A program made the translations under genes and the position numbers. DNA of 64,000 nt from positions 62,001-126,000 of the forward strand of contig JADNRX010000086.1 in the NCBI GenBank assembly GCA_015501595.1. Reading direction: 5' to 3'. Below, one piece after another: positions 182 through 60,309 of this stretch. This stretch comes from Hymenopellis radicata (lineage: Eukaryota; Basidiomycota; Agaricomycetes; Agaricales; Physalacriaceae). Each line of letters begins with the position of its first letter. The stretch's first letter is position 1. Below the pieces are notes generated by a model. It was not told where the DNA came from. It ran no database searches and saw only the letters and a list, made by a program, of their open reading frames with translations.

Positions 182-428
182 GCTCAACGTGGAGGAGTGA
201 CGGTGAGGGTAATGGTGGCGGTATCATGTGCGCGAATGCGTGGCGCGTGTCAGAATTGAAGAAAGGTTTTGGACTTTGGTTGCTCATGATATGATCTATG
301 AATGCACCTGTCGCCCGAGCTTTCATACTCTCTTTCTCCATCCCAAGGACTAAGTATGTCATCATTCTTAAGTAACGTGCGCCACATGTCTCGTATCGTC
401 TTGAAACATGCCACGAGCACCAACTGCG

Positions 429-881
429 ATGTTAAAATTGGCGACTATCGTTATCACGGCACCGTTCCTTTTTCGTGTTGCCACTGCGCAGGAAAACACG
501 CCTGGCTTATTCGAGCAATGTGAGTGGGGTTTCTTGTGATGGAATTTGAGCCTCGCTGATTTAGATATCGTAGGCGGGAACTTTATCACGACAGTGAGTG
601 TCCCTTCTCTTGAGTTCGCTTTCTTGTGCTGATGGTTATCCTGATATAGGAGAAATGTAAGCCCGGGCGCTTACTGATGTGGCGCCTTACATGTTTACAG
701 CGGAGACTGATAGGCAAAGACAACATGCCCTGCTGCTATCTGGCCGCCGACTATGGGATGTATGTGGTTCTATCCTGCAGTGTTAATCATGACCGACGTG
801 CTTTTCAGCTGTATGGTGGCATGTCCGAAAGCCTGCGCTTGCGTGGCTTCCCCTGAAGCGGGGGGATCTGGTGTGGTATAA
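429..881 (+). CDS. Small secreted cysteine-rich protein SSP2, left copy
   Basis: Five exons: 429-519, 574-593, 650-656, 714-759, 809-881, all joined by GT-AG introns of about 50 nt; predicted 78 aa. The first 21 residues (MLKLATIVITAPF...ATAQ) form a signal peptide, so the product should be secreted. The mature part carries C-x9-C-x5-CC-x8-C-x3-C-x3-C-x-C. The 7-nt exon 3 is chosen because it leaves a canonical GTAAG donor that also keeps frame; an alternative donor 12-18 nt downstream lacks GT in this copy. Function is unknown. The spaced CC motif resembles small cystine-knot-like proteins, and the CGG start also recalls CBM1 modules, but neither assignment is secure. The mirror copy is at 25,310-25,766. 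Confidence 0.72.
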
Positions 882-1303
882 CACGCACAAACCTGTGGCG
901 ATTGTACGAATTGAGAGGTCTTTAATTTCTATCACAATTCTGAGAACTGTCATCTTACTTCTGTCGTTGATTATTCGTCAACCTCTCAGGGATTTGACAG
1001 CGCTCCCTTTTGTTCTCCTCTCATCGTGCCGGCGGCGTTAGTCTGGGTATCGCCCTTGCATTACGCTAGCACTGTTGATGTTCTGGATCGATTCGGGGAG
1101 GGATGCAGTGCAACTGGTAGGTCCAGCCCACATGATATTCGATTCGACGGGCGGAAAATGTTCCGTTGGTGAGTGTTAAGCGCGTCGAGACCGTCTGTGA
1201 TCCAGGGCTCATCGTCGTCGACAACCACGCTCAGTCGACAATGCAACCATACTGATGTACAGACATTTCGCACAGCTTTATCGTCACCTAGGGATCCGTC
1301 TTG

Positions 1304-1314
1304 TATATATAAAG
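1304..1314 (+). promoter_or_regulatory. TATA box of SSP3, left copy
   Basis: TATATATAAAG lies about 75 nt upstream of the SSP3 start at 1,388. The same box is conserved in the inverted copy (minus strand, 24,870-24,880), which supports both the promoter and the hand-built gene model. Confidence 0.6.
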
Positions 1315-1387
1315 AGCCTGCATGGAGCGGTAGTTCCTTAGCACAGCAGGTCTGTACTCAGAGGACGGGATCTTCTTCCACACGACC

Positions 1388-1894
1388 ATGCTTCTATTCG
1401 GTGTCTTTACTCTTGCTCTTTTCTCTTTCTCATTCGGAGCGCGCACTATGAGAAGGGAAACGCTTCCCGTGGTTGAACGTGGAAAACAATGTGAGCATCA
1501 TGCATATTTGCCTTGAGAAACTCACGATGAATCACAGGCAGTACTGTCGCTGGAAAGGTTTGCCTATCCAGCTTCTTTAGATCGTAGCTGATTAGATGTT
1601 TACTACTAGGTTGCGACATGTAAGTTTCTCAACACATTCATCTTCGCACCTCGTCTCATTTCAACGTCAATAGGTGCGTCTGGCCTTCAGTGCTGTCCTG
1701 TCAAGGTGGGCGTGGCGGATAACAGCGTGTAAGCCGGTCAGATCATTGTCCTACAATGATGGTAGCTCACAACATGCCGTAGATGCATGACCGCTTGCCC
1801 ATTACCAGTGAAGAACCCGCAGTACCGGTGTGACGGAAGGGTATTGGGACGAATTCTCGGACGAGCGATAGGTTGTAGTGCCTTTTGTGTCTGA
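1388..1894 (+). CDS. Small secreted cysteine-rich protein SSP3, left copy, shifted tail
   Basis: Five exons: 1,388-1,490, 1,538-1,557, 1,610-1,619, 1,674-1,728, 1,783-1,894. The signal peptide begins MLLFGVFTLALFSFSFGA. The mature core has C-x9-C-x5-CC-x11-C-x3-C, the same framework and same exon phases as SSP1/SSP2, including a 20-nt exon 2 and a 10-nt exon 3 ending at a GTAAGT donor. In exon 5, shortly after the last core cysteine, this copy lacks single bases that its mirror copy (24,306-24,795) has, so the tail is read in another frame and ends at TGA 1,892-1,894 with extra cysteines. The right copy probably keeps the ancestral tail. No function is known. Confidence 0.68.
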
Positions 1895-2161
1895 CATGTA
1901 GATGTCCGAAGTCGAGTGTTGAGACGAGCTTGGGATAGACCAATTGAACGCGCCGCATTTCTCTGTTGGATTCGTAAGCCGATGGCCAAGTTAGAGGAGC
2001 AGCCGAGGAGCAGCAAGTCTCTCCTAGCTTGATCTCAAAACTCGGCCTAGATCAACTTGCTCAAAGAAACGCGCACGATATTTGACGAGGAATGGAACAG
2101 AACATAAACCGCAATGAAAATTAAAAGTATGGCGATCGGTTACAGAGTCAAGGACTTGTGG

Positions 2162-3573
2162 TTACATCTGCAGTGCCCTCTGCAAAGTTGCTCCCTCCAA
2201 AAGAATACCCTCATCCGTATCAACCCCACACCACGCTCCACAACGCCTAGTCAGCACACAAACCGCGTCCGTATATATACCCTTTTCAAGGAGCTCGGCA
2301 GCTGCCACCCATTCAGCGCCATCTCCATATCACCCATCCCACTCGTAACCTCCAAATTTTCCAAATGCGTTAGGCCCGATAGATCGAAAGCCACTACAAA
2401 ACAGATGAGCACATCTCGAGCATAGAGAATGAGGAAACCACTAACCATTGCGTTTCACAAAGCTCAGCCTCACATCCTTCAGAGTTTCCATATTCCTTTG
2501 GATGAGCGGAGTCGCCTCCCCGACACGACATGTCGACAGAACGTTAGCGCTCTCCAATTCCAGACTCTCCAGCGTCCCCACGATGTTATCCCCCAACCAG
2601 CGCACAAAATGATTATTCCACCCGACCACGCGCAGGGTGCGTAAACACGGCATAGCCAGTCTGAGCTTGTGCAACCCAGATAGCGATGCGTCCGGTAAAT
2701 CCAATCCACCCGATGCAAGCTCAATACTGAGTCCGGCGAGGCGCGGGAAAGAACCGGAAAGCACGCGCATGAAGCTCATGATGTCCTGATACGAGGCGCA
2801 GATAACCTTAAGGCTGGCAAGATCCTGGAAGCACTGGGCGAAGAGTCCGACAACTTACAAGGGATGGCTCTTCTCAACCACCCCCGACCGAAGCATGACA
2901 TGCTTAGCATTAAGGACACGGAGCAACTTGCTATAGGACCGCGCACAAGAAGATTTGCCGTTGGCGGAGTTATCGTCAAACGGTACATCGCTGTAGGTAC
3001 TGGGACTCGGCTGGTCACACAGACACGATGATGGTGGTCTTAAGACGAGGTGCACATTCGGAGCCTATGTACCCTATAACATCCCTGCATACCCGTGTCC
3101 GTACAGCCTAATCGAGACCTACATCGATGTAGGTACTGGGACTCGGCTGGTCACACAGACACGATGATGGTGGTCTTAAGACGAGGTGCACATTCGGAGC
3201 CTATGTACCCTATAACATCCCTGCATACCCGTGTCCGTACAGCCTAATCGAGACCTACATCGCCGACGAGTGTTAGGCCGGTAATGGACGGGGAAAGCGT
3301 CTCACGCGACGAGTGCAGAAGCTTTACGAGCTCCTTGGCGCGAGAAGGGGATGAGACGAGGAGCGTCAAAGGCGGTAGATGATGACGGCTGATGTTGTTC
3401 CAAGTGGGGTGGACGAGTGCGCACGACAAAAGGGTGGCTTTGTCGTCGGCCAGGTAGGCAATGATAAGATCAAGGAGCTCCTGCGGTACAAGCCCGAATG
3501 GGCCTGTACTAGTAGAGGAGCGGTGGGTGTGAGTGAGTTTATTGATGAAATTGCGGATGATGTTGAGAGCCAT
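2162..3573 (-). pseudogene. F-box protein F1, left copy, disrupted
   Basis: The start is the ATG at 3,573 (MALNIIRNFINKL); a longer reading would need a TTG and would overlap the TATA box. The F-box is intact here (VPQELLDLIIAYLADDKATL) and is followed by leucine-rich sequence like that of F-box/LRR adaptors of SCF ubiquitin ligases. The frame then breaks twice: two tandem 136-bp units (2,992-3,263) sit in the coding sequence and bring a stop, and near 2,850-2,873 there is an indel relative to the right copy. The final exon, ending with TAA at 2,162-2,164, is preserved. The right copy has a different, non-overlapping lesion. Confidence 0.8.
2992..3263. repeat. Two tandem 136-bp units inserted in F1
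   Basis: Two nearly identical head-to-tail units, 2,992-3,127 and 3,128-3,263, absent from the mirror copy where the sequence runs straight through (GGCGATGTACCG). The junction between units contains the perfect 18-nt palindrome ACCTACATCGATGTAGGT. No terminal inverted repeats or coding capacity were seen, so the origin is unclear. Confidence 0.85.
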
Positions 3574-3599
3574 GATAGAAGTGTTGAACGAAAGAGAGC

Positions 3600-4700
3600 G
3601 GTCGAAATCGTTCTTTATAAACAAAACTTGGTATAGGGGTCATGGGCGCACCGCCTCCTGAACGAGATCGAAGCCTTCTTCTTGAGACTTTAAAAGTCTT
3701 AATCATCCTCGTAGTACGTCGGTGATTGGGCGATTCGAGACGTCCCACGGCTAAACCAAAGAAGACATTTAGAAACAATACATCATGGACGAAAAGAGCT
3801 CCTACCATCAGAACACGAAAAATCCGAGACGTGTGCACTCTAACACTACTTCCTCCGTCACGATATCGCGATCAAGAGGCGTTGAACGCAAGCATGGTAG
3901 AGATTGGGACCTTGGGTAGAGGACAACGCCATCACCGTACGCGCTTGCGCTCGCACGTCGCTCCTCGTCCTAGTTGCTCGGGATTCGTTATCGATTGCAG
4001 GACATACAGCCACGCTGTATTGCGTGAATGTCTCCTGCCCCGGCTAGGTGCGACGTCTGGTTCGACTGACATGCCATGCGTCCGTTCCGTACAAGGCAGT
4101 TGACGAAGGAATAGTAAGTGACGATGTGGAGTGCTTCGTGTCTTCACGTCTAGCGAGTTTGGAGCACAATAGTTTCGTGGATTGGATGATCCATGTCACG
4201 CTGACGAGCGCGAACGATGCTATGGCAGCGAAGGGCGACTAGTGATGGAATACATGGGGCTGCCAGTAGCTTCATGTTCAGCACGGATAGCAGATTCCTA
4301 GTCCGCACAGCGCGTCGCATCACCGTCGTCGGTGTCGGCGCGAGTCTTAGAACTCGCTGGACGTAGACTGCTGGAGCGCACATTAGGCGAAAAGGGAGCT
4401 GGCGTCTCGGGTGCGTGATGGAGGTCCGCGATTGCCCGAGGCTTGCATTTTTGGCGACACGTATTCTTGAACATAGACGTTGATTGCTGTATGCCCCGGT
4501 ATCATGGCGTCGATAAATGTGCTAGCTGCAAAAAAATCTGAGGATTGAGCCAAGCTACGTAGTACAACCCAACTATACATACCCTCGGATATAATCATCT
4601 GGTGGTCGGGAGTCGCGACGACATTTTGTGTTGGCGGTGGTGGTGGTAAATCGCAACCTCGGAACTCCGCTCTCCCGATTGGACGCATCCCATTTAGGCA
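3600..4700 (-). other. Conserved block X, left copy, coding content unclear
   Basis: About 1.1 kb conserved in inverted orientation at 21.8-22.8 kb. On the right, a two-exon reading frame can be built. Here the corresponding ATG is followed after nine codons by TGA because of a deletion, so no intact protein exists in this copy. An internal stretch (about 4,260-4,420) is present here but deleted on the right. No family is recognised. Confidence 0.45.
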
Positions 4701-4869
4701 ATCACCTTCAGACTACGTCTGCTGGGCCCCCACTGCCGCTTATCGCGCGCTCTAAGGGCGACCTCGCGGCGAGTACAAGACATTCTGGCTAGTAAAACCC
4801 GAGCGGAATTTGAGGCTGAGGCAGTAAGTATTCGACGTATTCCAGGATTAGTCTCTTCTAAACAGACTA

Positions 4870-5102
4870 CTGTCCAATTTCGATCAATTCGTCGCACCAT
4901 GTGACGTGTGACCGGTGCGACGAAATTTCGGTTTCGTCGAATTTCCTTATATAGTAATTGCCGATGCGGCGGAGCCGCGTCGGGAGGCCGGCGGGGGCCC
5001 CGCCAGGGTGTTCTGAGCGAAATTTTCAGTGACAACTGTGACATTTCGTCGTTTCGTCGGTCGCTGTGACCTGTGACCGACGAATTGATCGAAATGCCAC
5101 AG
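4870..5102. mobile_element. MITE-like element M5, TA target
   Basis: A 233-bp element whose ends read CTGTCCAATTTCGATCAATT and, inverted, CTGTGGCATTTCGATCAATT. TA dinucleotides flank it at 4,868-4,869 and 5,103-5,104. Internally it has ATATAGTAATT and a GC-rich central hairpin, like the other CTGT elements in this window. It encodes nothing and would depend on a transposase from elsewhere, presumably of the TA-targeting Tc1/mariner type. Confidence 0.8.
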
Positions 5103-5104
5103 TA

Positions 5105-5348
5105 CTGTAGCGTTTCGACCGTATATTCTCATATCGGGTCACGGAGCCTCACGAACCGAACCTATACATATTGCATATTGCATCACGGAGCCTCCTGGCC
5201 AGGCACAGGCATCCAAAAGTGGAAATTTCAGGTCCCGCCTGCAGCGGGCCTGTCCAAATAAGGGAATTTAAGGGTCTACGAACCTATTTGCTGTAAGTTC
5301 ACAGCATATCGGGTCACAAGCCGCGAACCTACGGTTGAAACGCTACAG
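5105..5348. mobile_element. MITE-like element M6, TA target
   Basis: A 244-bp element directly next to M5, sharing the TA at 5,103-5,104; the other TA is 5,349-5,350. The ends are CTGTAGCGTTTCGACCGTA and, inverted, CTGTAGCGTTTCAACCGTAG. Non-coding. The flank beyond 5,350 is the conserved 3' region of the F2/F3 F-box genes. Confidence 0.8.
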
Positions 5349-6159
5349 TACATCCGCGTGCGCGTCAAGTTCAATTGGACCTGTGAAGCGCACTGGCAGG
5401 AATAAGCATTGCACGACCTTCGGCACTGTGTTGAGAATGGAATGCATGTGGACAATCTGACGTGTTCTTTGGCAAAGTAAACATGAGTGCAATTTGGTGG
5501 GCCTGGATAACGAAATCTCTTCCATCACGTCTCACTCCCAAATCCTTTCTGGTTCCGGCGTTCGCCCAAGCCAAATCTGATAATCATACATATACGTTTC
5601 TGCTTTTCAAATCAGTAACACGCAAGGCAAACGAGCCATGATACGAACCGATAACTTCTATCAAGACATTGATCTGACCGCGATATTCGCCTACCAGGGT
5701 CTGCCATCTGGTGTCGTCCTCAACCTTCGAAAATCGATGGTACGGCCCTTGAGCCCCAGTGAGAAGTCAGTCTAGGGAGATCGCCGAGGTGGTGCTATGA
5801 TTTGGTAGGGTTTAGATTTCCCTATGAATTCCTTGTAAATCTTGGCTAGAATGGAACAGTTTTGATGAGTTAGATACCAGAAACTAGTGCTTGCGGGGCT
5901 ACAATAGGAATGCTTAGTTCATATCAGGTTCCTATTCATTTCGGTTTCTCTGGGGTTTGTACACGTATTGTTGCATTTGAATGGAATTCATAATTGACGA
6001 ACAGGTAGTAGACAAGGGGGTACAGTATTTCAATAGCTCTACTACATTCTATAGACAAGTTACCGAGAGATGGGACGAAACTCGCTGACAAGGGTACCTC
6101 GATGTCTTCATGTCGTTGACGAGGCAATGCTGTCGTGCTCGCAGAAGTTGGGTGCATCC

Positions 6160-6500
6160 TCGTTATGCAGCGGTTGCTGTCCTCGTTATGCGGTGCTCGC
6201 TGTCCTCGTCCTTGACATTCGTTGTGTGGTGCTTGCGGTCCTCGTCCTCCTCGGCGTTGTCGCTCGTAAGGCAGTGCTCGTGGTCTCGTCCTCGTCGGTG
6301 TCGGCGCTCGTAAGGCAGTGCTCGTCCTCGTCCTAGTCCCCGGCCTTGTCCTCGTCCTCGTTTCCATTGCAGACAGGCAAGTACAGGCCATAGTGTCAGG
6401 GTGTCTCGTCCTCGGCGGCGGCTCCTGGTAGTATTGCAGTCAGTCGTTGTCCAGCGGTTCCTTCGCGTCGCAACACGGCCTCGTCCACGTCCTCGACTCT
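6160..6500. repeat. CTCGTC-type low-complexity tract
   Basis: Imperfect short repeats of CTCGTC/CTCGTCCTCG lie inside the hAT-like element. They open long arginine-rich reading frames on both strands that look artefactual. Confidence 0.75.
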
Positions 6501-6756
6501 GGGTCCTCTTCATGTCCTTGGCGTTGTCGTGGCGGGTGTCTGAGTGCGATAGACAGTGGAAGTTCGCAGTGGAAGTTCGAGGGCAAATGCAGCATGGTGG
6601 TGGCAGAGGACAAGTCAAACCAACTTGCACGTGTGTCATGTGTAGCGAAATCAGATTCATTGACATAAGCATTGGATTGTGCGACTCAACGTTGACTGTC
6701 CTGCATATCCTGTTTGTCCATAGAGTAGCCTAGGTAAAATCACTCAAGAGCAGGTA

Positions 6757-7011
6757 CTGTACTCTTTCGACCGCATTTTCACATAACGCGTCACGCGGGT
6801 CTGTGAAGCGAAGATCCAGGTACAGCATAACGCATCACGGACCCCAAAACTTGTTAGTGTTCGCTTAAATAGGCAATTTTTTCGCTCCGGCTGGCGCCGG
6901 AGCCTCCATATATAGTAATTCACATGATTTTTGTGCCTAATGAAGATGTTCGCTACATCTTCATGACCATAACGTGTCACAGGCCGTGAAGATACGGTCG
7001 AAAGAGTACAG
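6757..7011. mobile_element. MITE-like element M1, TA target
   Basis: A 255-bp element flanked by TA at 6,755-6,756 and 7,012-7,013. The termini are CTGTACTCTTTCGACCG and its inverse with few changes. It is nested inside the hAT-like element. A nearly identical copy of the same length is at 56,913-57,167, which suggests recent movement. Confidence 0.88.
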
Positions 7012-9105
7012 TACTCCGACATCTTGCCGATATCCTTGATTCTCATAGATTTCCATAGGCTTTCGATCGAGTTCCTTGTTTACGCTTTATTGAGCTAGCT
7101 TTCCCTAGACAGACTTCTCACTGGGCTTGAGCCCTGGTACGATAACATTTTTCCTTTTTTCTGGGCTGATAAACCCGCACGTGAGTCCATACACGAGCAG
7201 CGGCCGGGTCTGGCCGAGCCAGCATTACGGAGAGACTTGGGAAGATCCTAAAGATGTCGTCCGGGTCGAGTGACGAGTCGACCTGGGTCAGAAGGGTTAC
7301 ATTCTCAAGTAAGGAGAAGGGAGAGTCGGTGGTGGGCGGTCTAGTGAGGAAGGAGAATACGCCCACGGATACATCCAAGCGAACACGGCGACTCGGTGGA
7401 ACATAGACTGTGGAGTCATATCTGAGGTCCTGTTCAAGCCGAAAAGATACAAGTTGAGGAAAGTGGTCGGCTACATGTCGAAGACCATCCAAGGTCCTGG
7501 AGGCGATGGCGTTGCGTATATTCAAAGAAATGATGGTACACTTGGATCGCGCAACCAGCGATTGAATCAAATGTGGGGATAGTACTGGATCGTCTCTCGA
7601 GTCAGGCCGAGACTCAAACACGCACAGCTTGGAGAGCGACGGCAGGACCAACCAATGTCCAAGCTGAGACGAAGCGAAAAGTGTGATCTCCTCCAGACGA
7701 GGAAGCTCCACGATGATCGGTTGATCCAGGACCGGCACATCGAAGTATCCATAGGATTCTTGACACACTAAAGTTTTCAGTTGGTCTGCTTTCTGCAACC
7801 CGACCAGAACGTGGTGCACCAGCAGATCCTTGTCTCCTCCTCCATCGACAGTGAAATCCGCGTCGAGGAGACGCGACCATGGCAATTCTACCAGAATCGT
7901 GTTCTTTGGTGTGATGAATACTTTTGTGAGCTTGGGTGCGTCTCGAAATGCGGTACAACGAGAGGGCGGGGGCCGTAACCATTGAAGACTATAACGGTGA
8001 GCGTCTCCAGCGAGTCTAGTCTGTCATGAAGCGGGTCGAGTAAGGACAAATCCCCATCATCGGGGGATACAATACACAGTGACTTCCACCGAGGCGCCGT
8101 GTGAAAAAGCGCGGAAAGAATGTCTTGGATTTCGTCGTCAATTCTCGACCGGGAGATGCCTGAGCACGTCAACGAGATGTGCAGGGGAAAGTTTTGGGCG
8201 AGTACGAGAAACTGGTCCAGTGCAGAACGCCATCGCCATGACGAAGCCGCGTGTCCGTTGGCAGTCCTGTCCCGCCCGGAGTTAGCGGGCGAGATATTGA
8301 CCTCGAGCCGCGACCAGAGGACGCTTGTGCCAAGGGCAGCGGCGCGCCATGCACGCGAAACATGGGCAAGTCGAAGGGCGGGGTGTTTAGCATCCGGGCG
8401 CAGTTCGAAGCCTCTATTATTATACGACTGGGCGTCATGATCAAGAACAAAGATATGTTGAAGGATTTCGGGGGGTGCATCGGAGGCGCCAAGTGGAGTC
8501 GTCAGAGACTGATCCATTAGATCTAAAATGAGCTTGAATATGGAGTACGAGGAACAGACTCGAACAGACCTGGTCTGGGAAGATCCGGGAGCGATATGAG
8601 CTCCGACTGTTCACTTAGCCTGGAAATTTTTTTTGAAGACGAGGACACTGGTAGGGTATGGGACGTACTGCAATCGCGATGATGGGAGTAAGTAAAAGAG
8701 TTGGGGATGATCGTACGTTACGTATAGCATGGCCACCTTCTCATTATTAATCGAGCTGTCGTCTCGCCTTCTAGCCAGTCCGTTTGATACAAGGCAGTCG
8801 TACGCGTGAGTGGCTGACGTTCTTTCCGAGTGTTGCGTGCTTGATAGACGGGAGAGATGACTTGTCGGACATACGACATCCGCGTGCGCGTCAAGTTCAA
8901 TTGGATGTGTGAAGCGACCATCGCTGGCAGGAATAACTGTTGCGCGATGTGTTGAGAATGCAATGCATGTGGTCAATCTGACGTGTTCTTTAGCAAAGTA
9001 AACATAAATGCAATTTGGTGAGCCTGGATAATAAAAATCTGTTCTATCACGTCTCACTGCCAGAAATTTCCTGGTTCTGGCGTTCGCCCAAGCCAAACCT
9101 GATAA

Positions 9106-10638
9106 TCATACTCCGACGTTGAAATACCTACCTTTCAAGTCAGTGACATACAAGGTGGCAAAGGAGCTACGATACGGACCGATAACTTCTATCAAGACAT
9201 TGAGCTGACCATGATAGCCATCTGTCAGCGTCTGCCATCTGGCGTCGTCCTCAACCTCCGAATATCGATGGTAGGGCCCTTGAACGCTGTCCTCGCTAAA
9301 CAGTTTCTGCATTTGTGCAGACCGATAAACCCGCGCGTGAGCGTATACACGAGCAGTGGCTGAGTCTGGCTGAGTCTGGCGCAAAGCTAGCATTCCGGAG
9401 AGACTTGGGAAGATCCTGAAGAGGTCATCCGGCTCGAGTGACTTAAAACGGAATGAAAGGGATACATTCTGAAGTAAAGGGAAGAGGTGCGAACTTGTGA
9501 GGAGGGAGAAAACGTGAAGGGGTATATCACCTTCATTGAAGGCTGCTTCCCTGTGTTCTAGCCGAAGGGATACAAGCTGAGGAAGATGGTAGGCTACATC
9601 TCGAAGACCATCTACGGTGCTGGAGGCGAAGGCATCGGATATGGTCAAAGACACGATATTACACTTGGATCGCACAACCAGCGATTGTATCCACTGTGCC
9701 GAAGGTGCTAGATCGCCTTCCGAAAAAAGAAGAGAATCATAAATGCGCAGCTTGGAGAGCGACGGTACGACCAATCGATGCACAAGCTGAGACGACGTGA
9801 AAAGTGTTATCTCCTCAAGACAAGGAAGCTCCACGTCGGCCATGATTGGCGTGTTTTGGTATCTATGCCATTCTCGACAACTTAGAGTTTTCAGTTGATC
9901 TGCTTTCTGCAGTCCAACAAGAAAGTCCTGCATAATCAGAGCAAACTGATCGGCCTCGCGGCCTCCCGAAAGAATTTCATCGAAAGTGAAACCCACATGG
10001 AGGAGATGCGACCATGGCAGCTCTACCAGAATGACGTTCTCCGTTGAGATGCTCAGAAGTTTCGGGGCATCGCGAAAGGCGGTAAAGTGAGAGAGCGAGA
10101 ATGGGATATCGTGGCCAGAGACTATAACGTGTAGCTTCTCCAGAGAGTCCAGCCTATCATGAAGCGGATCGAGGAAGGACCAGTCGCCATCCTCCTCATC
10201 CCAGACCACTCGGAGGCAAAGAGACAGCGACTTCCACCGAGGGGCCGTATGAAGGAGTGCGGCAACGATGGCCTGGATTTCCTCATCAGTCCTCCACCGG
10301 GGCATGCCTGAGAACGCCAACAAGATGTGGAGGGGAAAGTCTTGGGCGAGTACGAGAAACTGGTCCAACGCTGAACGCCACTGCCATGCGCTTCCGTTGA
10401 CACAGACCTTCATGAAATTTGGATTGATGTCGGCCTCGAGGCGCGACCAGAGGACGCTTGTGCCAAGAGCAGCGGCGCGCCATGCACGCGAAACATGGGC
10501 AAGTCGAAGCGCAGGGTGCTTAGCACCCGGGCGAAAACAGAAGCCTCGATATGACTCAGCGTCAAGAGTGAAAATGTGTTGGAGGATTTCGACGGGTGCG
10601 CTGGAGGCGCCAAGTGGAGTCGGAGGAGACTGATCCAT
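9106..10638 (-). CDS. F-box protein F2, left copy
   Basis: A single long exon, 510 aa, starting at ATG 10,638 (MDQSPPTPLGASSAPVEIL); an upstream in-frame TTG is not used because the TATA-like GTATACAC and the ATG of F3 both point to MDQS. The F-box is at residues 12-60, with HVSRAWRAAALGTSVLWSRLE, followed by a leucine-rich C-terminal region with repeated L-x2-L motifs. Such proteins bring substrates to SCF (Skp1-cullin-F-box) ubiquitin ligases; the substrate is unknown. The frame is open to the end (GRYFNVGV). A weak 34-nt intron could alternatively join a short further exon in the conserved downstream 230 bp. This is the least damaged of the three F2-type copies. Confidence 0.85.
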   Translation of the reverse strand: MDQSPPTPLGASSAPVEILQHIFTLDAESYRGFCFRPGAKHPALRLAHVSRAWRAAALGTSVLWSRLEADINPNFMKVCVNGSAWQWRSALDQFLVLAQDFPLHILLAFSGMPRWRTDEEIQAIVAALLHTAPRWKSLSLCLRVVWDEEDGDWSFLDPLHDRLDSLEKLHVIVSGHDIPFSLSHFTAFRDAPKLLSISTENVILVELPWSHLLHVGFTFDEILSGGREADQFALIMQDFLVGLQKADQLKTLSCREWHRYQNTPIMADVELPCLEEITLFTSSQLVHRLVVPSLSKLRIYDSLLFSEGDLAPSAQWIQSLVVRSKCNIVSLTISDAFASSTVDGLRDVAYHLPQLVSLRLEHREAAFNEGDIPLHVFSLLTSSHLFPLLQNVSLSFRFKSLEPDDLFRIFPSLSGMLALRQTQPDSATARVYAHARVYRSAQMQKLFSEDSVQGPYHRYSEVEDDARWQTLTDGYHGQLNVLIEVIGPYRSSFATLYVTDLKGRYFNVGV

Positions 10639-10933
10639 TGGATCTGTAGAAATTAACTTCAATCAGCGTGTATACGGAGTACTATGATCAAAATCGAACA
10701 GACCTGGTCTGGGAAGATCTTGGGCGATATGAGCTCCCAGTGTGCACTTGGCTTCCTGAAAATTCTTTGTAAACACGAGGATGAGGACAATGGCAGGCTA
10801 GCGTATGAGACGTACTCCAACTATGATGATGGTAGTCGAAGGAAAGCTGCAGCGCACGTGGCCATGTCATTGATCGGTTAATTTCCGTGGACGATGAAAA
10901 GACTGGGTATTTTAGAGAACTTCAATAAACATC

Positions 10934-12878: not shown

Positions 12879-14234
<1,356 letters not shown>

Positions 14235-14399
14235 TGTCGAGGACGACGGGACGGACAAGGTGGTGGTAGTGAAAGGAGAAGTAGACAATAACGATCAGAT
14301 TGCTGTTTTGGGTTGTATACCCTATATACGCGCGAACAACAAGGCTTCACATGGAACAAAAAAAAAGAACAAGGAAACCCAATACAGCGGATCGCCCTT

Positions 14400-16550: not shown

Positions 16551-16551
16551 C

Positions 16552-17473: not shown

Positions 17474-17739
17474 TTTCAAGACCGTTCTGAAGATGTCTCT
17501 GATCAGCGGGAGCGTTGTCTCACACAAATTCAGTAGAATGACCCACGAAACCCGTCAACGTGGTGGTGGAAGGATAGTCTTGAGTTTTTCTAACTGAATT
17601 TGCGGGGATTCCCGGTCACCGCGGCCGCCGAAGTCACGCCTCAGTCGACATCACTACCACGTGGCCGTCTCATCCTTTGTCTCGCGACTTCATCCAGTCT
17701 TGCACCTGGCCCTCTACTACTTGGACCCCACCTTTTACA

Positions 17740-18900
17740 ATGCCTATTACCAATTTGAAAACCGAATACCTTCCTGGATTTGACAACCCTATGACTTCTT
17801 TTGAGGTGCATACACTTCTCTATGTCGAACAAAAATCGGGCTGACGCGTCGCATTACCCAAGATCAGCCTAGACAAACCTCCCAGTGGTGCAAAGGCATC
17901 CAAAAAGCAACCCTGGTCCAATGTTCAGTTTGTCAACACCGCCGGCGATGGGTACGGGCCGCTCTCGACGAACTTTGGCGAGATCGCGACGAAAATTCCC
18001 GACAAGCCGTCTTTGAAGAGGTCCTGCGACAAGTGCCGAAAACGGCCCGACCAGGAGGGGAAGGGATACGCTTTCTGCGCATCCTGTAAAATCTCGTGCT
18101 ACTGCAGGTGCGTCCGACGTTACACGGATCTCCTTTCACGCCACTCAAAATTTGCCTTCTTTTTCTTCAAGTCGGGAATGTCAGACGGTACGACGCGTTT
18201 AATAACATCTTCGCCGGAATTTTGATCTTAAACGTCTCAGAGCCACTGGAAAGAGCACAAGAAACTGTGTCAGATTCGCGTAAAGCACCGGAAAATCGAG
18301 GAAGACCTCGAAGCCCAGGCGGTGAGCAACAACACGTCGTTCGTCTCCCAAGCGACGTTGCGCACCTGGTACCTCGACAACGTCGATATAGTCGACTATG
18401 TAGTGAGTCCTCTCAACCTATGCTTGCGGTTTTGCTTTCTTTCACGCCTACAAACCAACTGACGCACTTTGCCTTAGATCGCCCAAACGCTCGAATTCTA
18501 CAAAGGCGGCCAAACCGACCTCTGGCGCACGCACGCGACGATCATTTCCGTAGGCGGGCCCAAAGGCATCTGCTCCTCGGCCGACCAAATCACCTTCAGC
18601 GACGCCGAGCCCGCGTCGTTCGCGACCCTCGCGCGCAGGGACCGCCTCGACCTCTCGCCGCTCTATATTCAGGCGCTCGGCGGCGGGAGCCGCGTCATCG
18701 TCATATTTATCCCGAACCGCGACACGGATTTGATGCTTATTGAGAGCCATGATGTCCCGAGTGTGGAGGAGGTGGAGAGGGGGGAGAAGGACGAGATGTG
18801 GAGGATGCATGTGAGGATGCGGAAGATGGCAAGGATGATGTGCCAGAAGGATGAGGCGGGCGAGGAGGAAGCGGAGGACGCGTCTGGTGGTGGTAGATAA
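17740..18900 (+). CDS. MYND-type zinc finger protein
   Basis: Five exons: 17,740-17,805, 17,863-18,107, 18,172-18,187, 18,241-18,402, 18,478-18,900; 303 aa. The MYND finger (zinc-binding, protein-interaction) is assembled across three exons: CDKC, FCASC, YC, then SRECQ from the 16-nt micro-exon, then HWKEHKKLC. Without the micro-exon the sixth and seventh ligand region would be lost, so this exon is strongly supported. The C-terminal half resembles the unnamed domain that follows MYND in agaric proteins and ends in an acidic, Glu-rich tail. It is likely a protein-interaction or transcription-related factor; the exact role is unknown. It is a single-copy gene in the loop of palindrome 1. Confidence 0.85.
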
Positions 18901-19806
18901 ATTACTTCAAAGGTGCCAGATCACTGTACAAGGATCATAAGTAAACTATATCAATCGGAACCTTGAACTCAAAGCCTCTCTATTCCTCTGTTGTCCGTGG
19001 TAGGAATAACTTTAAAATGTGGTGGGAAATAAGTTAGTTCAAGGAGAACACTGTCATTTGCGGGACAACTAAACAAAGTATAATGTTGGTGAATCTACCG
19101 GCATGATCATGTACGCCACAAAGAGGTGGCAACCACCCCACATACTTCGTCGTGTCCTGAGTGCTTAGACAGCACTGTGTAGAGCAGTAGAGCCTGATGG
19201 AAAGCATCGATGCAGAGGGATCTCGGGACTGTTCGTAAGTGAAGTTTAGTTTGTAGAAGTTTGTAGAACACGCCTGGTTCGATGGTGGTAAAGACCGCTT
19301 TCCACTCTCTTCCCGGAAATCCACTCAGACACCGCGCCCCAACCAGAAATCCGCTGCTGTTGGGCCATCGGTTAGTATAACCTACCGCAAGCCCCGATCC
19401 AATCCCAACTCCATATGATGATGTTCATTAAATTTCTTTAAGATACCAAGTCCTTTTCTTTTTTTGCTTCGTACGGCTATCTCCTCACATAAGGATCGCC
19501 ACTTCGAACTTGTTAACGATGTATCAGTGCAAATAGTAGTTGAAACTCGATCAAATCGATCATGCATGACATGGCCACGTTCGCTGCATGACATCTTTCC
19601 TTCTACTACCATCATCACAGTTGGAGTACGTCTCATACGCTAGCCTGCCAGTGTCCTCATCCTCAGCGTGTTTACAAGGAATTTCCAGGAGGCCAAGTGA
19701 ACACTGGGAGCTCATATCGCCCGAGATTTTACCCAGACCAGGTCTGTTTGATTTTGTTCATAGTACTCCGTATAAACGCTGATTGAAGTTGATTTCTACA
19801 GATCCC

Positions 19807-21408
19807 ACGGATCAGTCTCCTCCGACTCCAGTTGGCGCCTCCAGCGCACCCGTCGAAATCCTCCAACACATATTCACTTTTGACGCTGAGTCGTATGGAG
19901 GCTTCCGTTTTCGCCCGGATGCCAAGCACCCTGCGCTTCGACTTGCCCATGTTTCGCGTGCATGGCGCGCCGCTGCTCTTGGCACAAGCGTCCTCTGGTC
20001 GCGGCTCGAGGCCAACATCAATCCAAATTTCATGATGGTCTGTGCCAACGGAAGCGCATGGCAGTGGCGTTCAGCGCTGGACCAGTTTCTCGTACTCGCC
20101 CAAGAATTTCCCCTCCACATCTCGTTGGCGTGCTCAGGCATGCCCCGCTGGAGGATTGATGAGGAAATCCAGGCCATCGTTGCCGCGCTCCTTCATACGG
20201 CACCTCGGTGGAAGTCGCTGTCTCTTTGGCTCCAAGTGGACTCGGATGAGGAGGATGGCGACTGGTCCTTCCTCGATCCGCTTCATGATAGGCTGGACTC
20301 TTTGGAGAAGCTACACGTTATAGTCTCTGGCCACGATATCCCGGTCTCTCGCTTTACCGCCTTCTCGCTCTGTCGCTTGACCGCCTTTCGCGATACCCCG
20401 AAACTTGTGAGGATCTCAACGGAGAACGTCATTCTCGTAGAGCTGCCATGGTCGCATCTCCTCCATGTGGATTTCACTTTCGATCAAATTGTTTCGGGAG
20501 ACGAGGCCGATCAGTTTGCTCTGATTATGCAGGACTTTCTTGTTGGACTGCAGAAAGCAGATCAACTGAAAACTCTAAGTTGTGGAGAATGGTATATACG
20601 CCAAAACGCAGTGAACGCGCCAATCATGGCCGACTTGGAGCTTCCTTGTCTTGAGGAGATAACACTTTCCACGTCGTCTCAGCTTGTGCGTCGGGTGGTC
20701 CTACCATCGCTCTCCAAGTTGCACATTCATGAGTCTATTCCTTATTCGGACGGCGACCTAGCACCATCGGCACACTGGATACAATCGCTGGTTGTGCGCT
20801 CCAAGTGTGCCATCATTTCGTTGACCATATCTCACGCCCGAGCCTTCATAACCTTAGATGGTCTTCGAGATATAGCCCACCATCTTCCTCAACTTGTATC
20901 CTTTCGACTTGAACGGGACACGATGCATCGGATGAGTCCACCTTATGATTCAAAACGTGGCTCTCGATGCAATATATCCCTTCACGTTTTCTCCCTCCTC
21001 ACTAGTTCGCACGTCTCCGGCCACGCCCTCTTCCCTTTACTTCAGAATGTATCCATTTCAATCTGCGCCGACTCACTCGACCCGGACGACCTCTTCAGGA
21101 TCTTTCCAAATCTCTCCGGAATGCTAGCTTCACGCCGGACTCAGCCAGACTCAGCCACTGCTCGTGTATACGCTCACGCGCGGGTTTATCGGCCTACACA
21201 AACGCAGAAAATGCTTAGCGAGGACAGTGTTACAGGGCCCTACCATCGATATTCGGAGGTTGAGGACGACGCCAGATGGCAGATGCTGACAGATGGCTAT
21301 CATGGTCAGATCAATGTCTTGATAGAAGTTCTCGGTCCGTATCGTAGCTCCTTTGCCACCTTGTATGTCACTGACTTGAAAGGTAGGTATTTCGACGTCG
21401 GAGTATGA
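19807..21408 (+). CDS. F-box protein F2, right copy, start codon changed
   Basis: One long frame, about 534 codons, closely similar to the left F2 including the F-box (VEILQHIFTFDAE) and HVSRAWRAAALGTSVLW. At the position of the left copy's ATG (MDQS) this copy has ACG (19,807-19,809), and no in-frame ATG occurs before the F-box. A TATA-like GTATAAA lies just upstream. Either the gene uses a non-AUG start, or an unseen upstream exon joins at the TTTCTACAG acceptor just before, or the gene has lost its start. The rest of the frame is open to the same C-terminus (GRYFDVGV) and has short coding insertions relative to the left copy. Predicted role: SCF substrate adaptor. Confidence 0.75.
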   Translation, partial: TDQSPPTPVGASSAPVEILQHIFTFDAESYGGFRFRPDAKHPALRLAHVSRAWRAAALGTSVLWSRLEANINPNFMMVCANGSAWQWRSALDQFLVLAQEFPLHISLACSGMPRWRIDEEIQAIVAALLHTAPRWKSLSLWLQVDSDEEDGDWSFLDPLHDRLDSLEKLHVIVSGHDIPVSRFTAFSLCRLTAFRDTPKLVRISTENVILVELPWSHLLHVDFTFDQIVSGDEADQFALIMQDFLVGLQKADQLKTLSCGEWYIRQNAVNAPIMADLELPCLEEITLSTSSQLVRRVVLPSLSKLHIHESIPYSDGDLAPSAHWIQSLVVRSKCAIISLTISHARAFITLDGLRDIAHHLPQLVSFRLERDTMHRMSPPYDSKRGSRCNISLHVFSLLTSSHVSGHALFPLLQNVSISICADSLDPDDLFRIFPNLSGMLASRRTQPDSATARVYAHARVYRPTQTQKMLSEDSVTGPYHRYSEVEDDARWQMLTDGYHGQINVLIEVLGPYRSSFATLYVTDLKGRYFDVGV

Positions 21409-21927
21409 TTATCAGGTTTGGCTTGGGCGAACGCCAGAACCAGGAAATTTCTGGCAGTGAGACGTGATAGAACAGATTTTTATTATCCAGGCTTACCATT
21501 ATGTTTACTTTGCTAAAGAACACGTCAGATTGACCACATCCATTCCATTCCATTCTCAACACATCGAGGAAGGTCTTGCAACGGTTATTCCTGCCAGTGA
21601 TGCTCGCTTCACAGGTTCAATTGAACTTGACGCGCACACGGATGTCATACTATGCCCAACAAGTCATCTCTCCCGTCTATCAAGCACGCAACACTCGGAA
21701 AGAATGTCAGCCACTCAAGCGTTCGACTGCCACACATTGCTGCTACGTATGTACCTTTCTACTTTCCCCCTTGGCCTATAACTTCAAATAAGTAGTAGAT
21801 GTAAATCGAGAAGCACCTCCCGGCGCTAGCAAAGAAAACAACGTATCTCTTGAAGGGCTATTATGCGACGAATCTAAAGGACTTTGATACGAGTTCCGAG
21901 GTTGCGCTTTACCACCACCACCACAAA

Positions 21928-22319
21928 ATGCCGTCGCGACTCGCCGTCACTCTAGTCGCTCCACAGGGCGTGCCCGACCACCAGACGATTATCTCCGAGG
22001 GTATGTATAGTTGGGTTGTACGTGCTCCACTTTTCGCTTGGCTCAGTGCTCAGAATTTCTTGCAGTTACCACTTTTATCGACGCCATGATACCGGGGCGT
22101 ACAGCAATCAACGTCTATGTTCAAGAATACGTGGGCATTATCTTTGTTGGGCCCAAAAATGCAAGCCTCGGGCAATCGCGGACCTCCATCACGCACCCGC
22201 GACCGGCAGCCCCATGTATCCCATCACTAGTCGCCCTTCGCTGCTATAGCATCGTTCGCGCTCGTCAGCGTGACATGGATCATCCAATCCACGAAACTAT
22301 TGTGCTCCCAACTCGCTAG
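21928..22319 (+). CDS. Block X candidate two-exon gene, right copy, unknown
   Basis: Exon 1 is 21,928-22,000 and exon 2 is 22,066-22,319, joined by a clean GTATGT...TTGCAG intron; 109 aa (MPSRLAVTLVAPQGVP...). The central part (TTFIDAMIPG-TAINVYVQEY) is conserved in the left copy, but that copy has an early stop. No domain is recognised. It could be a remnant of a longer gene, since a segment present on the left is missing here. Confidence 0.35.
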
Positions 22320-22835
22320 ACGTGAAGACACGAAGCACTCCACATCGTCACTTACTATTCCTTCGTCAACTGCCTTGTACGGAACGGACGCATGGCATGT
22401 CAGTCGAACCAGACGTCGCACCTAGCCGGGGCGAGAGACATTCACGCAATAGGTTAAATGCCAGCGTGGCTGTATGTCCTGCAATCGATAACGAATCCCG
22501 AGCAACTAGGACGAGGAGCGACGTGCGAGCGCAAGCGCGTACGGTGATGGCGTTTTCCTCTATCCGATCTCTACCATGTTGGGTTCAACGGCTCTTAATC
22601 GAAGTAGTGTTAGAAGTGCACACGTCTCGGATTTTTCGTGTTCTAATGGTACAGTAGAAGCTCTTTTCCTCCATGATGTATTGTTTCTAAATGTCTTCTT
22701 TGGTTTAGCCGCGGGACTACGAATCGCCCAATCACCGACGTACTACGAGGATGATTGAGACTTTTCTAAGTCTCTCAATGTCGCAGAAGGCTTCGATCTC
22801 GTTCTGCGCCCATGACCCCTATACCAAGTTTTGTT

Positions 22836-22842
22836 TATAAAG
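22836..22842 (+). promoter_or_regulatory. TATA box of F1, right copy
   Basis: TATAAAG lies 40 nt upstream of the ATG at 22,882. It falls inside a reading frame that would start with TTG, which is why the downstream ATG is preferred as the start of F1. Confidence 0.55.
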
Positions 22843-22881
22843 AACGAGTTCGACCGCTCTCTTTCGTTCATCACTTCTGTC

Positions 22882-24008
22882 ATGGCTCTCAACGTCATCC
22901 GCAATTTCATCAATAGACTCACTCACACCCACCGCTCCTCTGCTAGTACAGGCCCATTCGGGCTTGTACCGCAGGAGCTCCTTGATTGCCTACCTGGCCG
23001 ACGACAAAGCCACCCTTTTGTCGTGCGCACTCGTCCACCCCACTTGGAACAATATAAGCCGTCATCATCTACCGCCTTTGACGCTCCTCGTCTCATCCCC
23101 TTCTCGCGCTAAGGAGCTCATAACGCTTCTGCACTCGTCGCGTGAGACGCTTTCCCCGTCCATTACCGGTATAACACTCGTCGGCGATGTACCGTTTGAC
23201 GATAATTCCACCAACGGTAAATCTCCTTGTGCGCGGTCCTATAGCAAGTTGCTCCGCGTCCTTAAAGCCAAGCATGTCATGCTTCGCTCGGGGGTGGTTG
23301 AGAATGAGCCATCCCTTGTCGGACTCTTCGCTCAGTACTTCCCGGATCTTTCCAGTCTTAAGGTTATCTGCGCATCATACCAGGACATCACGAGCTTCAT
23401 GCGCGCGCTTTCCGGCTCTTTCCCGCGCCTCGCAGAACTCAGTATTGAGCTTGCATCGGGTGGATTGGATTTACCGGACGCATCGGTATCTGGGTTGCAC
23501 AAGCTTAGACTGGCTATGCCGTGTTTACGCACCCTACGCGTGGTCGGGTGGAATAATCATCTCCTGCGCTGGTTGAGGGATAACATCGTGGGGACGCTGG
23601 AGAGTCTGGCATTGGAGAGCGCTAACGTTCTGTGGACATGTCGTGTCGGGGAGGCGACTCCGCTTATTCAAAGGAATATGGAAATTTTGAAGGATGTGAG
23701 GCTGAGCTTTGTGAAACGCAATGGTTAGTGGTTTCCTCATTCTCTATGCTCGAGATGTGCTCATCTGTTTTGTAGTGGCTTTCGATCTATCGGGTCTAAC
23801 GCATTTGGAAAATTTGGAGGTTACGAGTGGGATGGGTGATATGGAGATGGCGCTGAATGGGTGGCAGCTGCCGAGGTCCTTGAAAAGGGTATATATACGG
23901 GACGCGGTTTATGTGCTGACTAGGCGTTGTGGAGCGTGGTGTGGGGTTGATACGGATGAGGGTATTCTTTTGGAGGGAGCAACTTTGCAGAGGGCATTGC
24001 AGATGTAA
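22882..24008 (+). pseudogene. F-box protein F1, right copy, 8-nt deletion in the F-box
   Basis: The start is ATG 22,882 (MALNVIRNFINRL). At about 22,986, inside the F-box, 8 nt present in the left copy (CTTATCAT) are missing, which shifts the frame. From there on the frame is open (IAYLADDKATLLSC...) to 23,723, then a GTTAGT...TTTGTAG intron (23,724-23,775) and a last exon 23,776-24,008 with TAA. The leucine-rich part (ELSIELASGGLDLPDAS, LRTLRVVGW) is complete. The left copy has the F-box intact but is broken later, so neither copy encodes a full protein as written. Confidence 0.8.
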
Positions 24009-24305
24009 CAACAAGCCGTTGACTTTTCTGTAACCGATCGCCATACTTTCAATCTTCATTGCGGTTTATGTTCTGTTCCATTCCTCGTCAAATATTGTGC
24101 GCGTGTCTTTGAGCAAGTTGATCTAGGCCGAGTTTTGAGAATAAGCTAGCAGTTCATTCGAAGACTTGGGCTGCTCGCTAACTTGGCCATCGGCTTACGA
24201 ATTCAAAAGAGAAATGCGGCGCGCGTTCAATTGGTCTATCCCAAGCTCGTCTCAACACTCGACTTTGGACATCTACATGTCAGACACAAAAGGCACTACT
24301 ACAAC

Positions 24306-24795
24306 CTATCGCTTGTCCCAGGTTTCGTCCCAATACCCTTCCGTCACACCGGTACTGCCGGGTTCTTCACTGGTAATGGGGCAAGCGGCCATGCATCTAC
24401 GGCATATTGTGAGCTATCACCTTTGTAGGACAATGATCTGATTGGCTTACACGCTGTTATCCGCCACCCCCACCTTGACAGGACAGCACTGAAGGCCGGA
24501 CGCACCTATTGACGTTGACATGAGACGAGGTGCGAAGATGAATGTGTTGAGAAACTTACATGTCGCAACCTAGCCATAGGCATCTAATCAGTTACGATCT
24601 AAAGAAGCTGGATAGGCAAACCTTTCCAGCGACAGTACTGCCTGTGATTCATCGTGAGTTTCTCAAGGCAAATATGTATGACTCATGCTCACATTGTTTT
24701 CCACGTTCAACCACGGGAAGCGTTCCCCTTCTCATAGTGCGCGCCCCGAATGAGAAGGAGAAAAGAGCAAGAGTAAAGACAACGAATAGAAGCAT
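24306..24795 (-). CDS. Small secreted cysteine-rich protein SSP3, right copy
   Basis: Five exons: 24,693-24,795, 24,622-24,641, 24,560-24,569, 24,451-24,505, 24,306-24,396; 92 aa, all phases consistent. The signal peptide is MLLFVVFTLALFSFSFGA, then a basic pro-like stretch (RTMRRGTLPVVERG), then the core C-x9-C-x5-CC-x11-C-x3-C, and an acidic tail ending DETWDKR. Exon 3 is only 10 nt. A conserved TATA box lies upstream (24,870-24,880). The shared exon pattern with SSP1/SSP2 shows one gene family. Secreted, likely disulfide-rich; role unknown. Confidence 0.75.
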
Positions 24796-25309
24796 GGTCG
24801 TGTGGAAGAAGATCCCGTCCTCTGAGTACAGACCTGCTGTGCTAAGGAACTACCTCTCGAAGCTAGGCTCTTTATATATACAGGCGGATCCCTAGGTGAC
24901 GATAAAGCTGTGCGAAATGTCTGTGCATCAGGATGGTTGCATTGTCGAAGCGTGGTCGATGAACCCCAGATCACAGACGGTCCCGACGCGCGTAACAATC
25001 ACCAACGTAACATTTTCCGCCCGTCGAATCGCATATCATGGGGGCTGGACCTACCAGTTGTACTTGTACTGCATCCCTCCCCGAATGGATCCAGAACATC
25101 AACAGTGCTAGCGTAATGCAAGGGCGATACCCAGACTAACGCCGCCGGCACCATGAGAGGAGAACAACTGGGAGCGCTGTCGAAGCCTTGAGAGGTTGAC
25201 GAATAATCTTGAAGGACAGGAAGTAAGATGACAGTTCTCAGAATTGTGATAGAAATCAAAGACCTCTCAATTCGTACAATCGCCACAAATTTGTGCGTGT
25301 TATACCACA

Positions 25310-25766
25310 CTAATTGTCACCAGAACCACCCGCTTCAGGGGAAGCCACGCAAGCGCAGGCTAAGTTCGGACATGCCAGCATACAGCTGAACAGTACGTCG
25401 GTCATGATTAACACTGCAGGATAAAACCACATACATGCCATAGTCGGCCGCCAAGTAGCAGCAGGGCATGTTGTCCTTGCCTAAACATCCGCATCAGTCT
25501 CCATGTAAGGCGCCACATCAGTAAGCGCCGGGCTTACATTTCTCCTATATCAGGATAACCATCAGCACAGTGCACGAAGCGAAGAGAGAACGGACACTCA
25601 CTGTCGTGATAAAGTTCCCGCCTACGATATCTAAATCAGCGAGGCTCAAATTCCATCACAAGAAACCCCACTCACATTGCTCGAATAAGCCAGGCGTGTT
25701 TTCCTGCGCAGTGGCAACACGGAAAAGGAACGGTGCCGTGATAACGATAGTCGCCAATTTTAACAT
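25310..25766 (-). CDS. Small secreted cysteine-rich protein SSP2, right copy
   Basis: Five exons: 25,676-25,766, 25,602-25,621, 25,538-25,544, 25,435-25,480, 25,310-25,385; 79 aa. The signal peptide is identical to that of the left copy (MLKLATIVITAPF...). The mature chain has C-x9-C-x5-CC-x8-C-x3-C followed by two further cysteines and a Gly/Ser-rich end. The 7-nt exon 3 is flanked by an ATATAG acceptor and a GTAAG donor. Frame is kept despite many differences from the left copy, which suggests selection on the protein. Confidence 0.75.
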
Positions 25767-25902
25767 CGCAGTTGGTGCTCGTGGCACGATACGAGACATG
25801 TGACAAAGCCAGCCAGACATACAGAGAAGTGCAACCAAAGTCCAAAACCTTTCTTCAATTCGGACCGCCACCATTACCCTCACCGCCACTCCTTCGTTAA
25901 GC

Positions 25903-26308
25903 CTAGCAGGTTTTCGGACATGCCGTCATACAACTAAAAAACGCGTCAGTCACGACTTGGCCGGTAAGATGAACCCGCGTACATGGCATAGTCGAAATCC
26001 AAATAGCAGCAGGCCAGGTTCTTCTGGCCTAAATATCGACGTCAATTCACATCCAAAAGGTAGTATGATGCGCCATATCAACAGAGGAACTTACATCTGT
26101 GCTGTAACAGGATAAGTATCAGGACATCGAAGAGAAGAAAGAGAAGGAAAACGCACAGTCCAGACAACGTTTCCGCCTAGTATGCGAAGCCCACATTCGG
26201 CCAAAGAGATTTGAACTCACATCGGTCGTATAACGCAGGTCCGTTTCCCTGTGCAACAGCAGCACGGAAAAAGAATGGTGTCGCGAGAATGAAAGCCAAT
26301 TTCAACAT
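25903..26308 (-). CDS. Small secreted cysteine-rich protein SSP1, right copy
   Basis: Five exons: 26,221-26,308, 26,157-26,176, 26,095-26,101, 25,983-26,028, 25,903-25,933; 63 aa, phases consistent throughout. The signal peptide is MLKLAFILATPFFFRAAVAQ. The mature peptide of about 43 aa carries seven cysteines: C-x9-C-x5-CC-x8-C-x3-C-x3-C, ending CPKTC. Exon 3 could extend 12 nt if a weaker GTTGAT donor were used, adding one cysteine; the GTAAGT donor is favoured because SSP3 uses the same position. No homologous domain is certain (CBM1-like CGG...W start, or cystine-knot-like CC spacing). Confidence 0.75.
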
Positions 26309-49000: not shown

Positions 49001-49009
49001 TGCAACACG

Positions 49010-60288: not shown

Positions 60289-60309
60289 GGGGAGATGGAG
60301 ATACACACC

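Follow-up and report, generated by a model that had tools for sequence, protein, structure and literature searches.

Five-exon genes in two mirrored arms

The window, i.e. the whole 64-kb stretch of DNA analysed here, corresponds to positions 62001-126000 of Hymenopellis radicata contig C1251 (assembly of 75.5 Mb) and carries, in the two arms of an inverted duplication, a cluster of cysteine-rich mini-protein genes built from very small exons. It contains five such five-exon genes in full, plus the 3' part of one more. They belong to three subfamilies, A, B and C, and each copy is designated by its place: left or right arm of C1251, contig C661 or contig C978. For A_left the window holds exons 4 and 5 alone, exons 1-3 being located upstream at C1251 61770-61989. 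The features are listed below, with their basis in brackets.

1..10879, plus: window part of the inverted duplication's left arm, gapped and extending further left (sequence comparison)
56..101, plus: A_left exon 4 (splice parse)
151..181, plus: A_left exon 5 with stop (gene model)
429..519, plus: B_left exon 1, hydrophobic start, ends on the T of the Cys1 codon (parse, scan)
574..593, plus: B_left exon 2, 20-nt micro-exon (parse)
650..656, plus: B_left exon 3, 7-nt micro-exon (parse)
714..759, plus: B_left exon 4 (Cys2, Cys3-Cys4), acceptor uncertain owing to a competing upstream AG (parse)
809..881, plus: B_left exon 5 (Cys5, Cys6, tail, stop) (gene model)
1304..1314, plus: C_left TATA-like box TATATATAAAG, identical in four C copies (sequence, alignment)
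1388..1490, plus: C_left exon 1 (parse, scan)
1538..1557, plus: C_left exon 2, 20-nt micro-exon (parse)
1610..1619, plus: C_left exon 3, 10-nt micro-exon (parse)
1674..1728, plus: C_left exon 4 (parse)
1783..1894, plus: C_left exon 5 (gene model, alignment)
19554..26308, minus: right arm with mirrored cluster and gaps, homology continuing rightward (sequence comparison)
24306..24396, minus: C_right exon 5 (parse; protein identical to P0001)
24451..24505, minus: C_right exon 4 (parse, P0001)
24560..24569, minus: C_right exon 3, 10-nt micro-exon (parse, P0001)
24622..24641, minus: C_right exon 2, 20-nt micro-exon (parse, P0001)
24693..24795, minus: C_right exon 1 (parse, P0001)
25310..25385, minus: B_right exon 5 (parse)
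25435..25480, minus: B_right exon 4 (parse, scan)
25538..25544, minus: B_right exon 3, 7-nt micro-exon (parse)
25602..25621, minus: B_right exon 2, 20-nt micro-exon (parse)
25676..25766, minus: B_right exon 1 (parse)
25903..25933, minus: A_right exon 5 (parse)
25983..26028, minus: A_right exon 4 (parse, scan)
26095..26101, minus: A_right exon 3, 7-nt micro-exon, without counterpart in P0005 (parse)
26157..26176, minus: A_right exon 2, 20-nt micro-exon, without counterpart in P0005 (parse)
26221..26308, minus: A_right exon 1 (parse)

For eight open copies, splicing was parsed from the start codon onward, the family cysteine pattern, an exon 2 of 17-24 nucleotides (nt) and an exon 3 of 6-14 nt being required; each copy yielded one to four parses, and splice-site quality decided among them. 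The model of the ninth open copy, A on C661, was obtained by hand reading. Best-parse exon lengths were 88-109, 20, 7 or 10, 46 or 55 and 31-112 nt, and in all nine open copies exon 2 measured 20 nt, with an exon 3 of 7 nt in A and B and of 10 nt in C. The introns are of the GT-AG type, 44-71 nt long, with phases 1, 0, 1 and 2: introns 1 and 3 split the Cys1 and Cys2 codons after their first base, and intron 4 splits the codon preceding Cys5 after its second base (NN/N-TGY in 9/9 open copies). By scanning both strands of the window for genes shaped on the family, we detected exactly five complete loci, and none in 50 random 64-kb sequences drawn from a first-order Markov model. The five-exon structure with a 20-nt exon 2 and a 7-10 nt exon 3, proposed in a first-pass annotation made from the sequence alone, is thus borne out by the parses, the scan and three public models. 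The small exon size held as well, albeit with a longest exon of 112 nt where a ceiling of about 110 nt had been given.

CTRAY branch motifs were found in 18 of the 36 introns (1000 shuffles: mean 5.5, maximum 13), 16 of which have one motif at 12-18 nt from the acceptor. The motif is common in A and B introns (15/20) and rare in C introns (3/16), and in intron 2, which leads into exon 3, it occurs at 17-18 nt in seven of the nine copies. The earlier AG competing in intron 3 of B_left could spoil splicing of that copy.

Three public models contain the micro-exons: BDZ89DRAFT_1133908 (P0001) is identical to the C_right model over 92 aa, P0004 matches the C model of C978 without any difference, and the C661 A model forms part of P0003, which has an upstream extension. 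P0005 (BDZ89DRAFT_785786; A_right, window 26308-25903) misses both micro-exons and leaves the family frame; it seems to splice exon 1 to exon 4 through another donor and is probably a mis-annotation due to the micro-exons. No public model was returned by protein searches for A_left, B_left, C_left or B_right. Invisibility to open reading frame (ORF) callers, as stated in the first-pass annotation, thus does not leave the genes unannotated: one public model indeed lacks both micro-exons, but three others have them. Putative secreted mini-proteins of this type are nonetheless easily mis-annotated, as P0005 illustrates. According to its published description, the H. radicata genome was annotated with the JGI pipeline, RNA-seq serving to improve the annotation (PMC8480192).

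Copies, constraint and divergence between contigs

Searching the H. radicata genome by DNA, by pattern and by protein brought up 11 copies: C1251 has six, C661 three and C978 two. Nine of them are open and two damaged (B_661 by a frameshift, B_978 by the loss of exon 1). The exon-5 pattern AGNTGYATGN6TGYC, a probe blind to members with a different exon-5 motif, occurs at 56 places genome-wide (reversed-pattern control: 37). When all 56 were checked for an exon-4/exon-5 parse, the 11 known copies alone passed, B_661 solely via an alternative donor. A place on C1051 (L084), picked up by the genome protein search at E 0.06, gave no parse and was rejected as a further member. Protein searches, whose reach is limited to relatives with common 5-residue words and whose library consists of gene calls that often miss micro-exons, returned six proteins: four from H. 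radicata and the short-contig ORFs P0002 and P0006. The latter two seem to read exon 1 on into intron sequence and to contain the exon 1 of a C-like and an A-like relative, respectively; the family is therefore not confined to this assembly. Its distribution looks narrow at this search depth, and no title on the mini-protein family appeared among the matches listed for the open-licence literature.

Differences between left and right arm, summed over the three gene pairs, fell 6/5/18 on codon positions 1/2/3 (one-sided binomial p 0.0014), part of the C tail being counted in another frame. Equal rates at all codon positions, the outcome named in the first-pass annotation as speaking against its proposal, were thus not found. 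Nonsynonymous divergence (dN) in the core was lower than synonymous divergence (dS) in 10/10 within-subfamily pairs, which are not independent of each other; for C_right versus C_978 the two values are nearly equal (dN 0.206, dS 0.211). Of six comparisons of A with B, dN<dS holds in four, and dS is undefined in the other two. The third-position bias and the core dN<dS indicate constrained genes. The tails are unconstrained, and that of C_left follows a frame other than that of C_right via one-base indels beyond Cys6.

In the alignment of four C copies, variable columns amount to 7/97 ungapped columns in the upstream 100 nt, 69/201 in the introns and 122/229 downstream. The exons taken singly give 16/103, 8/20, 1/10, 12/55 and 24/57 for exons 1 to 5, i.e. 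61/245 for all exons and 29/168 for exons 1, 3 and 4, a grouping chosen afterwards. The comparison with the introns gives p values of 1e-7 (upstream region), 0.0002 (exons 1, 3 and 4) and 0.036 (all exons).

These observations bear on two alternatives. If the copies were decaying duplicates, relics with little or no function, one could account for the damaged B_661 and B_978, the competing acceptor of B_left and the freely diverging C tails. Such decay sits poorly with nine open copies, the codon-position bias, a conserved promoter region and conserved splice signals, and we consider it very improbable; the scan, the public models and the codon-position bias agree instead with a real and constrained family of cysteine-rich mini-proteins that is duplicated and uses micro-exons, as originally proposed. 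The other alternative is that the products are secreted effectors acting on plants or other hosts, since they are small and cysteine-rich with a hydrophobic start, and their genes are clustered, duplicated and divergent between contigs. However, the core dN<dS in all ten pairs gives no sign of overall positive selection, and no named effector family was matched in Pfam or protein searches. An effector reading is in our opinion unlikely; the effector-like or defence role suggested at first is possible, but nothing in the analysis shows it.

C661 is colinear with C1251 across the spacer and covers roughly the first kilobase of the right arm, at 96.2% over 8,735 nt. An assembly fold-back was considered as cause of the mirror and is unsupported at its centre, where C661 spans the spacer into the right arm. 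In window 3256-4400, C661 differs by 4.2% from the left arm and 11.1% from the right, the arms being 9.8% apart, and in window 8793-10933 by 3.3% from the right arm and 7.6% from the left, the arms being 8.0% apart. Within the stretch of the mini-protein genes, the arms of C1251 pair with each other (7.1%), as do C661 and C978 (9.7%), with 15.6-16.9% between groups and 98 sites supporting this grouping versus 4 and 2. Divergence between contigs in the cluster is approximately four times that of the two flanking stretches from their nearest arm. The C661 segment at 41.1-44.8 kb, beside the cluster, is common to C978 and matched neither C1251 arm. The pattern fits two divergent haplotypes whose arms have been homogenised by gene conversion, and C661 may represent the other nucleus.

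The mirror is far wider than the cluster: C1251 10.0-12.8 and 21.8-25.7 kb correspond to 119.9-122.7 and 109-113 kb (window 57900-60725 and 47000-51000), in inverted order and with a sampled identity of 93-94%, some repeats also being direct. These outer pieces, seen on C1251 alone, suggest arms of about 40-60 kb. At window about 48355-48469 lies a repeat of ~110 nt with 96-99% copies on at least 10 other contigs; it is missing at the other arm's site (C1251 24289-24291, where the query pieces adjoin) and is probably a recent insertion. A 266-nt element with inverted ends tactgtactctttcgaccg is found at window 6748-7013 and 56904-57169 (96% alike), the latter copy lying inside a 285-nt inverted repeat, between its arms; 260 nt of it recur at C661 28989-29248 with 100% identity. 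A 136-nt tandem duplication (99%) at window 2984-3255 breaks the left-to-right arm homology. In the spacer, a protein kinase domain gene is located at window 12977-13828 (minus strand), and its only near-identical other copy among the matches listed is on C661. Outside the window, C1251 50956-51056 (minus strand) gave a 73% match to the stretch upstream of the C661 A gene, with no mini-protein gene behind it. Two other single-contig inverted duplicates, on C629 (31.9/37.6 kb, 91.6%) and C600 (56.1/73.7 kb, 99.6%), turned up incidentally at the 56 places of the exon-5 pattern; mirrored duplication, or an assembly look-alike of it, may be common in this genome.

The cysteine core, loop 1 and a proposed relation to CBM1

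The framework is C-x8-C-x5-CC-x8-C-x3-C in A and B and C-x9-C-x5-CC-x11-C-x3-C in C, so that the C-x9-C-x5-CC-x8/11-C-x3-C initially ascribed to the whole family describes subfamily C but not the C-x8-C of A and B. Past Cys6 there is one additional cysteine in the A arm copies, two in the B arm copies and none in A on C661. The hydrophobic start makes secretion likely; as to the shared signal peptide first assumed, the N-terminal region of C differs from that of A and B.

At the level of sequence, the core resembles CBM1, the cellulose-binding module of fungi, beyond its cysteine spacing. Aligned by hhalign to six CBM1 sequences, seven of the nine open copies gave a P of 3.9e-5 and a probability of 70%, with four cysteines in register. 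The score of 22.0 was reached by none of 300 cysteine-preserving column shuffles (mean 8.9, maximum 16.9), and CBM1 column permutation gave p 0.0004. Foldseek ranks 1-4 went to a pair of dehydrogenase chains bearing CBM1 and a pair of CBM1 chains, all of them below significance. By our own reading, intron 4 has the position and phase of an intron in one CBM1 gene of the H. radicata genome (L091/L097).

Several points weigh against counting the family as CBM1. Nine members gave no Pfam match to CBM1 (PF00734) at E<=10, a search in which the HMMER filters lose most weak matches, and CBM1 was tested only after the non-significant fold match had pointed to it. The CBM1 binding face is formed by aromatic residues 5, 31 and 32 of 1cbh. 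The three aromatics are not all present here: in A and B, position 5 is Y or F, 31 is D and 32 is Y, and C has none of the three. In view of the missing Pfam match, the partly kept binding residues and the post hoc test, we do not claim membership of the CBM1 family.

The main rival is that the products are lineage-specific knottin-like antimicrobial or antagonistic peptides without CBM1 descent, the likeness reflecting convergence of short cysteine-rich sequences. The Pfam result would agree with this, as would the presence of an antifungal seed peptide and two spider peptides in the non-significant Foldseek list and a cluster strongly divergent between contigs with 2/11 copies damaged, as in gene families under conflict. 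Convergence accounts less well for a CBM1 similarity that withstands cysteine-preserving shuffles and for an intron position and phase common to the family and a CBM1 gene. Inhibitor cystine knots have the spacing C-x3-7-C-x3-8-C-x0-7-C-x1-5-C-x4-13-C and disulfides 1-4, 2-5 and 3-6; structure models of the mini-proteins were too poor to show such a pairing. The mini-proteins share with them six cysteines in the order C-C-CC-C-C, but depart from the consensus with C1-C2 8-9, C4-C5 8-11 and C5-C6 3; the cystine-knot-like spacing of the first-pass annotation is not supported in the form given there, the closer relation being CBM1 plus an extra cysteine pair. We regard knottin-like peptides as a possible but distinctly less probable explanation than the one we prefer.

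That explanation, to which we lend roughly even credence, is that these spliced genes, narrowly distributed in H. radicata, encode secreted disulfide-rich mini-proteins with a modified CBM1 fold as core and a loop 1 supplied by the micro-exon pair, acting as extracellular binding peptides. Gene structure, constraint, the copies, the frame-neutral cassette, the relations of the arms and the likeness to CBM1 are results of the analysis; secretion, disulfide pairing, fold and function, which we infer, would be as follows. Cysteines 1, 2, 3 and 5 would take the four CBM1 cysteine positions, with cysteines 4 and 6 forming a third disulfide. The exported peptide would bind a polysaccharide of the wall or some other surface outside the cell via a CBM1-like face, where A and B retain aromatics at two of the three positions, whereas C, without these aromatics, may have turned the scaffold to another target. 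Loop 1 would be a changing contact loop. Should the CBM1 link be true, a binding module of wood-decay enzymes would have given rise to a stand-alone family of three-disulfide peptides.

In all nine open copies, exons 2 and 3 together (27 or 30 nt) code exactly for loop 1, from Cys1 to Cys2, and each outer junction of the pair falls in a TGY cysteine codon, directly behind its T. Omission of both micro-exons would preserve the frame and one cysteine in 9/9 open copies, and skipping one alone shifts the frame. Two phase-1 introns give such neutrality by themselves, and with random phases its chance is one in three; the frame-neutral cassette is thus an opportunity for splice switching and not evidence of switching. 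It is a speculative idea, which we would not expect to prove right, that loop 1 is a splice-switchable cassette through which one gene yields a fully paired six-cysteine and a free-thiol, possibly dimer-forming, five-cysteine CBM1-derived peptide, with loop 1 changing fast and the arms kept alike by gene conversion.

Comparison with known systems

With CBM1 (PF00734; T. reesei CBH I, PDB 1cbh) the mini-proteins share the order of four cysteines, whose spacing of 8-5-9 in A and B comes near the 10-5-9 of CBM1 (C has 9-5-12; the second C of CC is counted as a loop residue), a Q preceding Cys1 (B, C) or a G following it (A, B), an aromatic at Cys1 minus 3 and a tyrosine at the last Cys minus 3 (A, B), the motif CASG (three of four C copies) and an intron preceding the last cysteine. 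They differ from it by two more cysteines, a shorter loop 1 encoded by two micro-exons, a D in place of one face tyrosine and an apparently stand-alone state without fused enzyme. Hydrophobins have eight cysteines and two CC pairs; the mini-proteins do not fit this, each having one CC pair, and the sole match to a hydrophobin chain is at E 6.4.

Schistosome micro-exon genes encode secreted, fast-evolving proteins, partly from very short exons. The bicycle genes of aphids, as described in PMC9168663, likewise encode secreted, fast-evolving proteins and are partly composed of very short exons. Both belong to other lineages and have other motifs, and the H. radicata genes have one micro-exon pair each instead of many micro-exons. 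In fungi, microexon work is relatively limited according to the authors of the Trichoderma Xlr2 study (PMC11121469), and 7- and 10-nt exons in nine related ORFs offer a clean fungal test case for the splicing of tiny exons between short introns. Xlr2 likewise includes a micro-exon within its coding sequence, but in this transcription factor the micro-exon is single and regulated, whereas the genes described here have a pair of them and form a family of putative secreted peptides.

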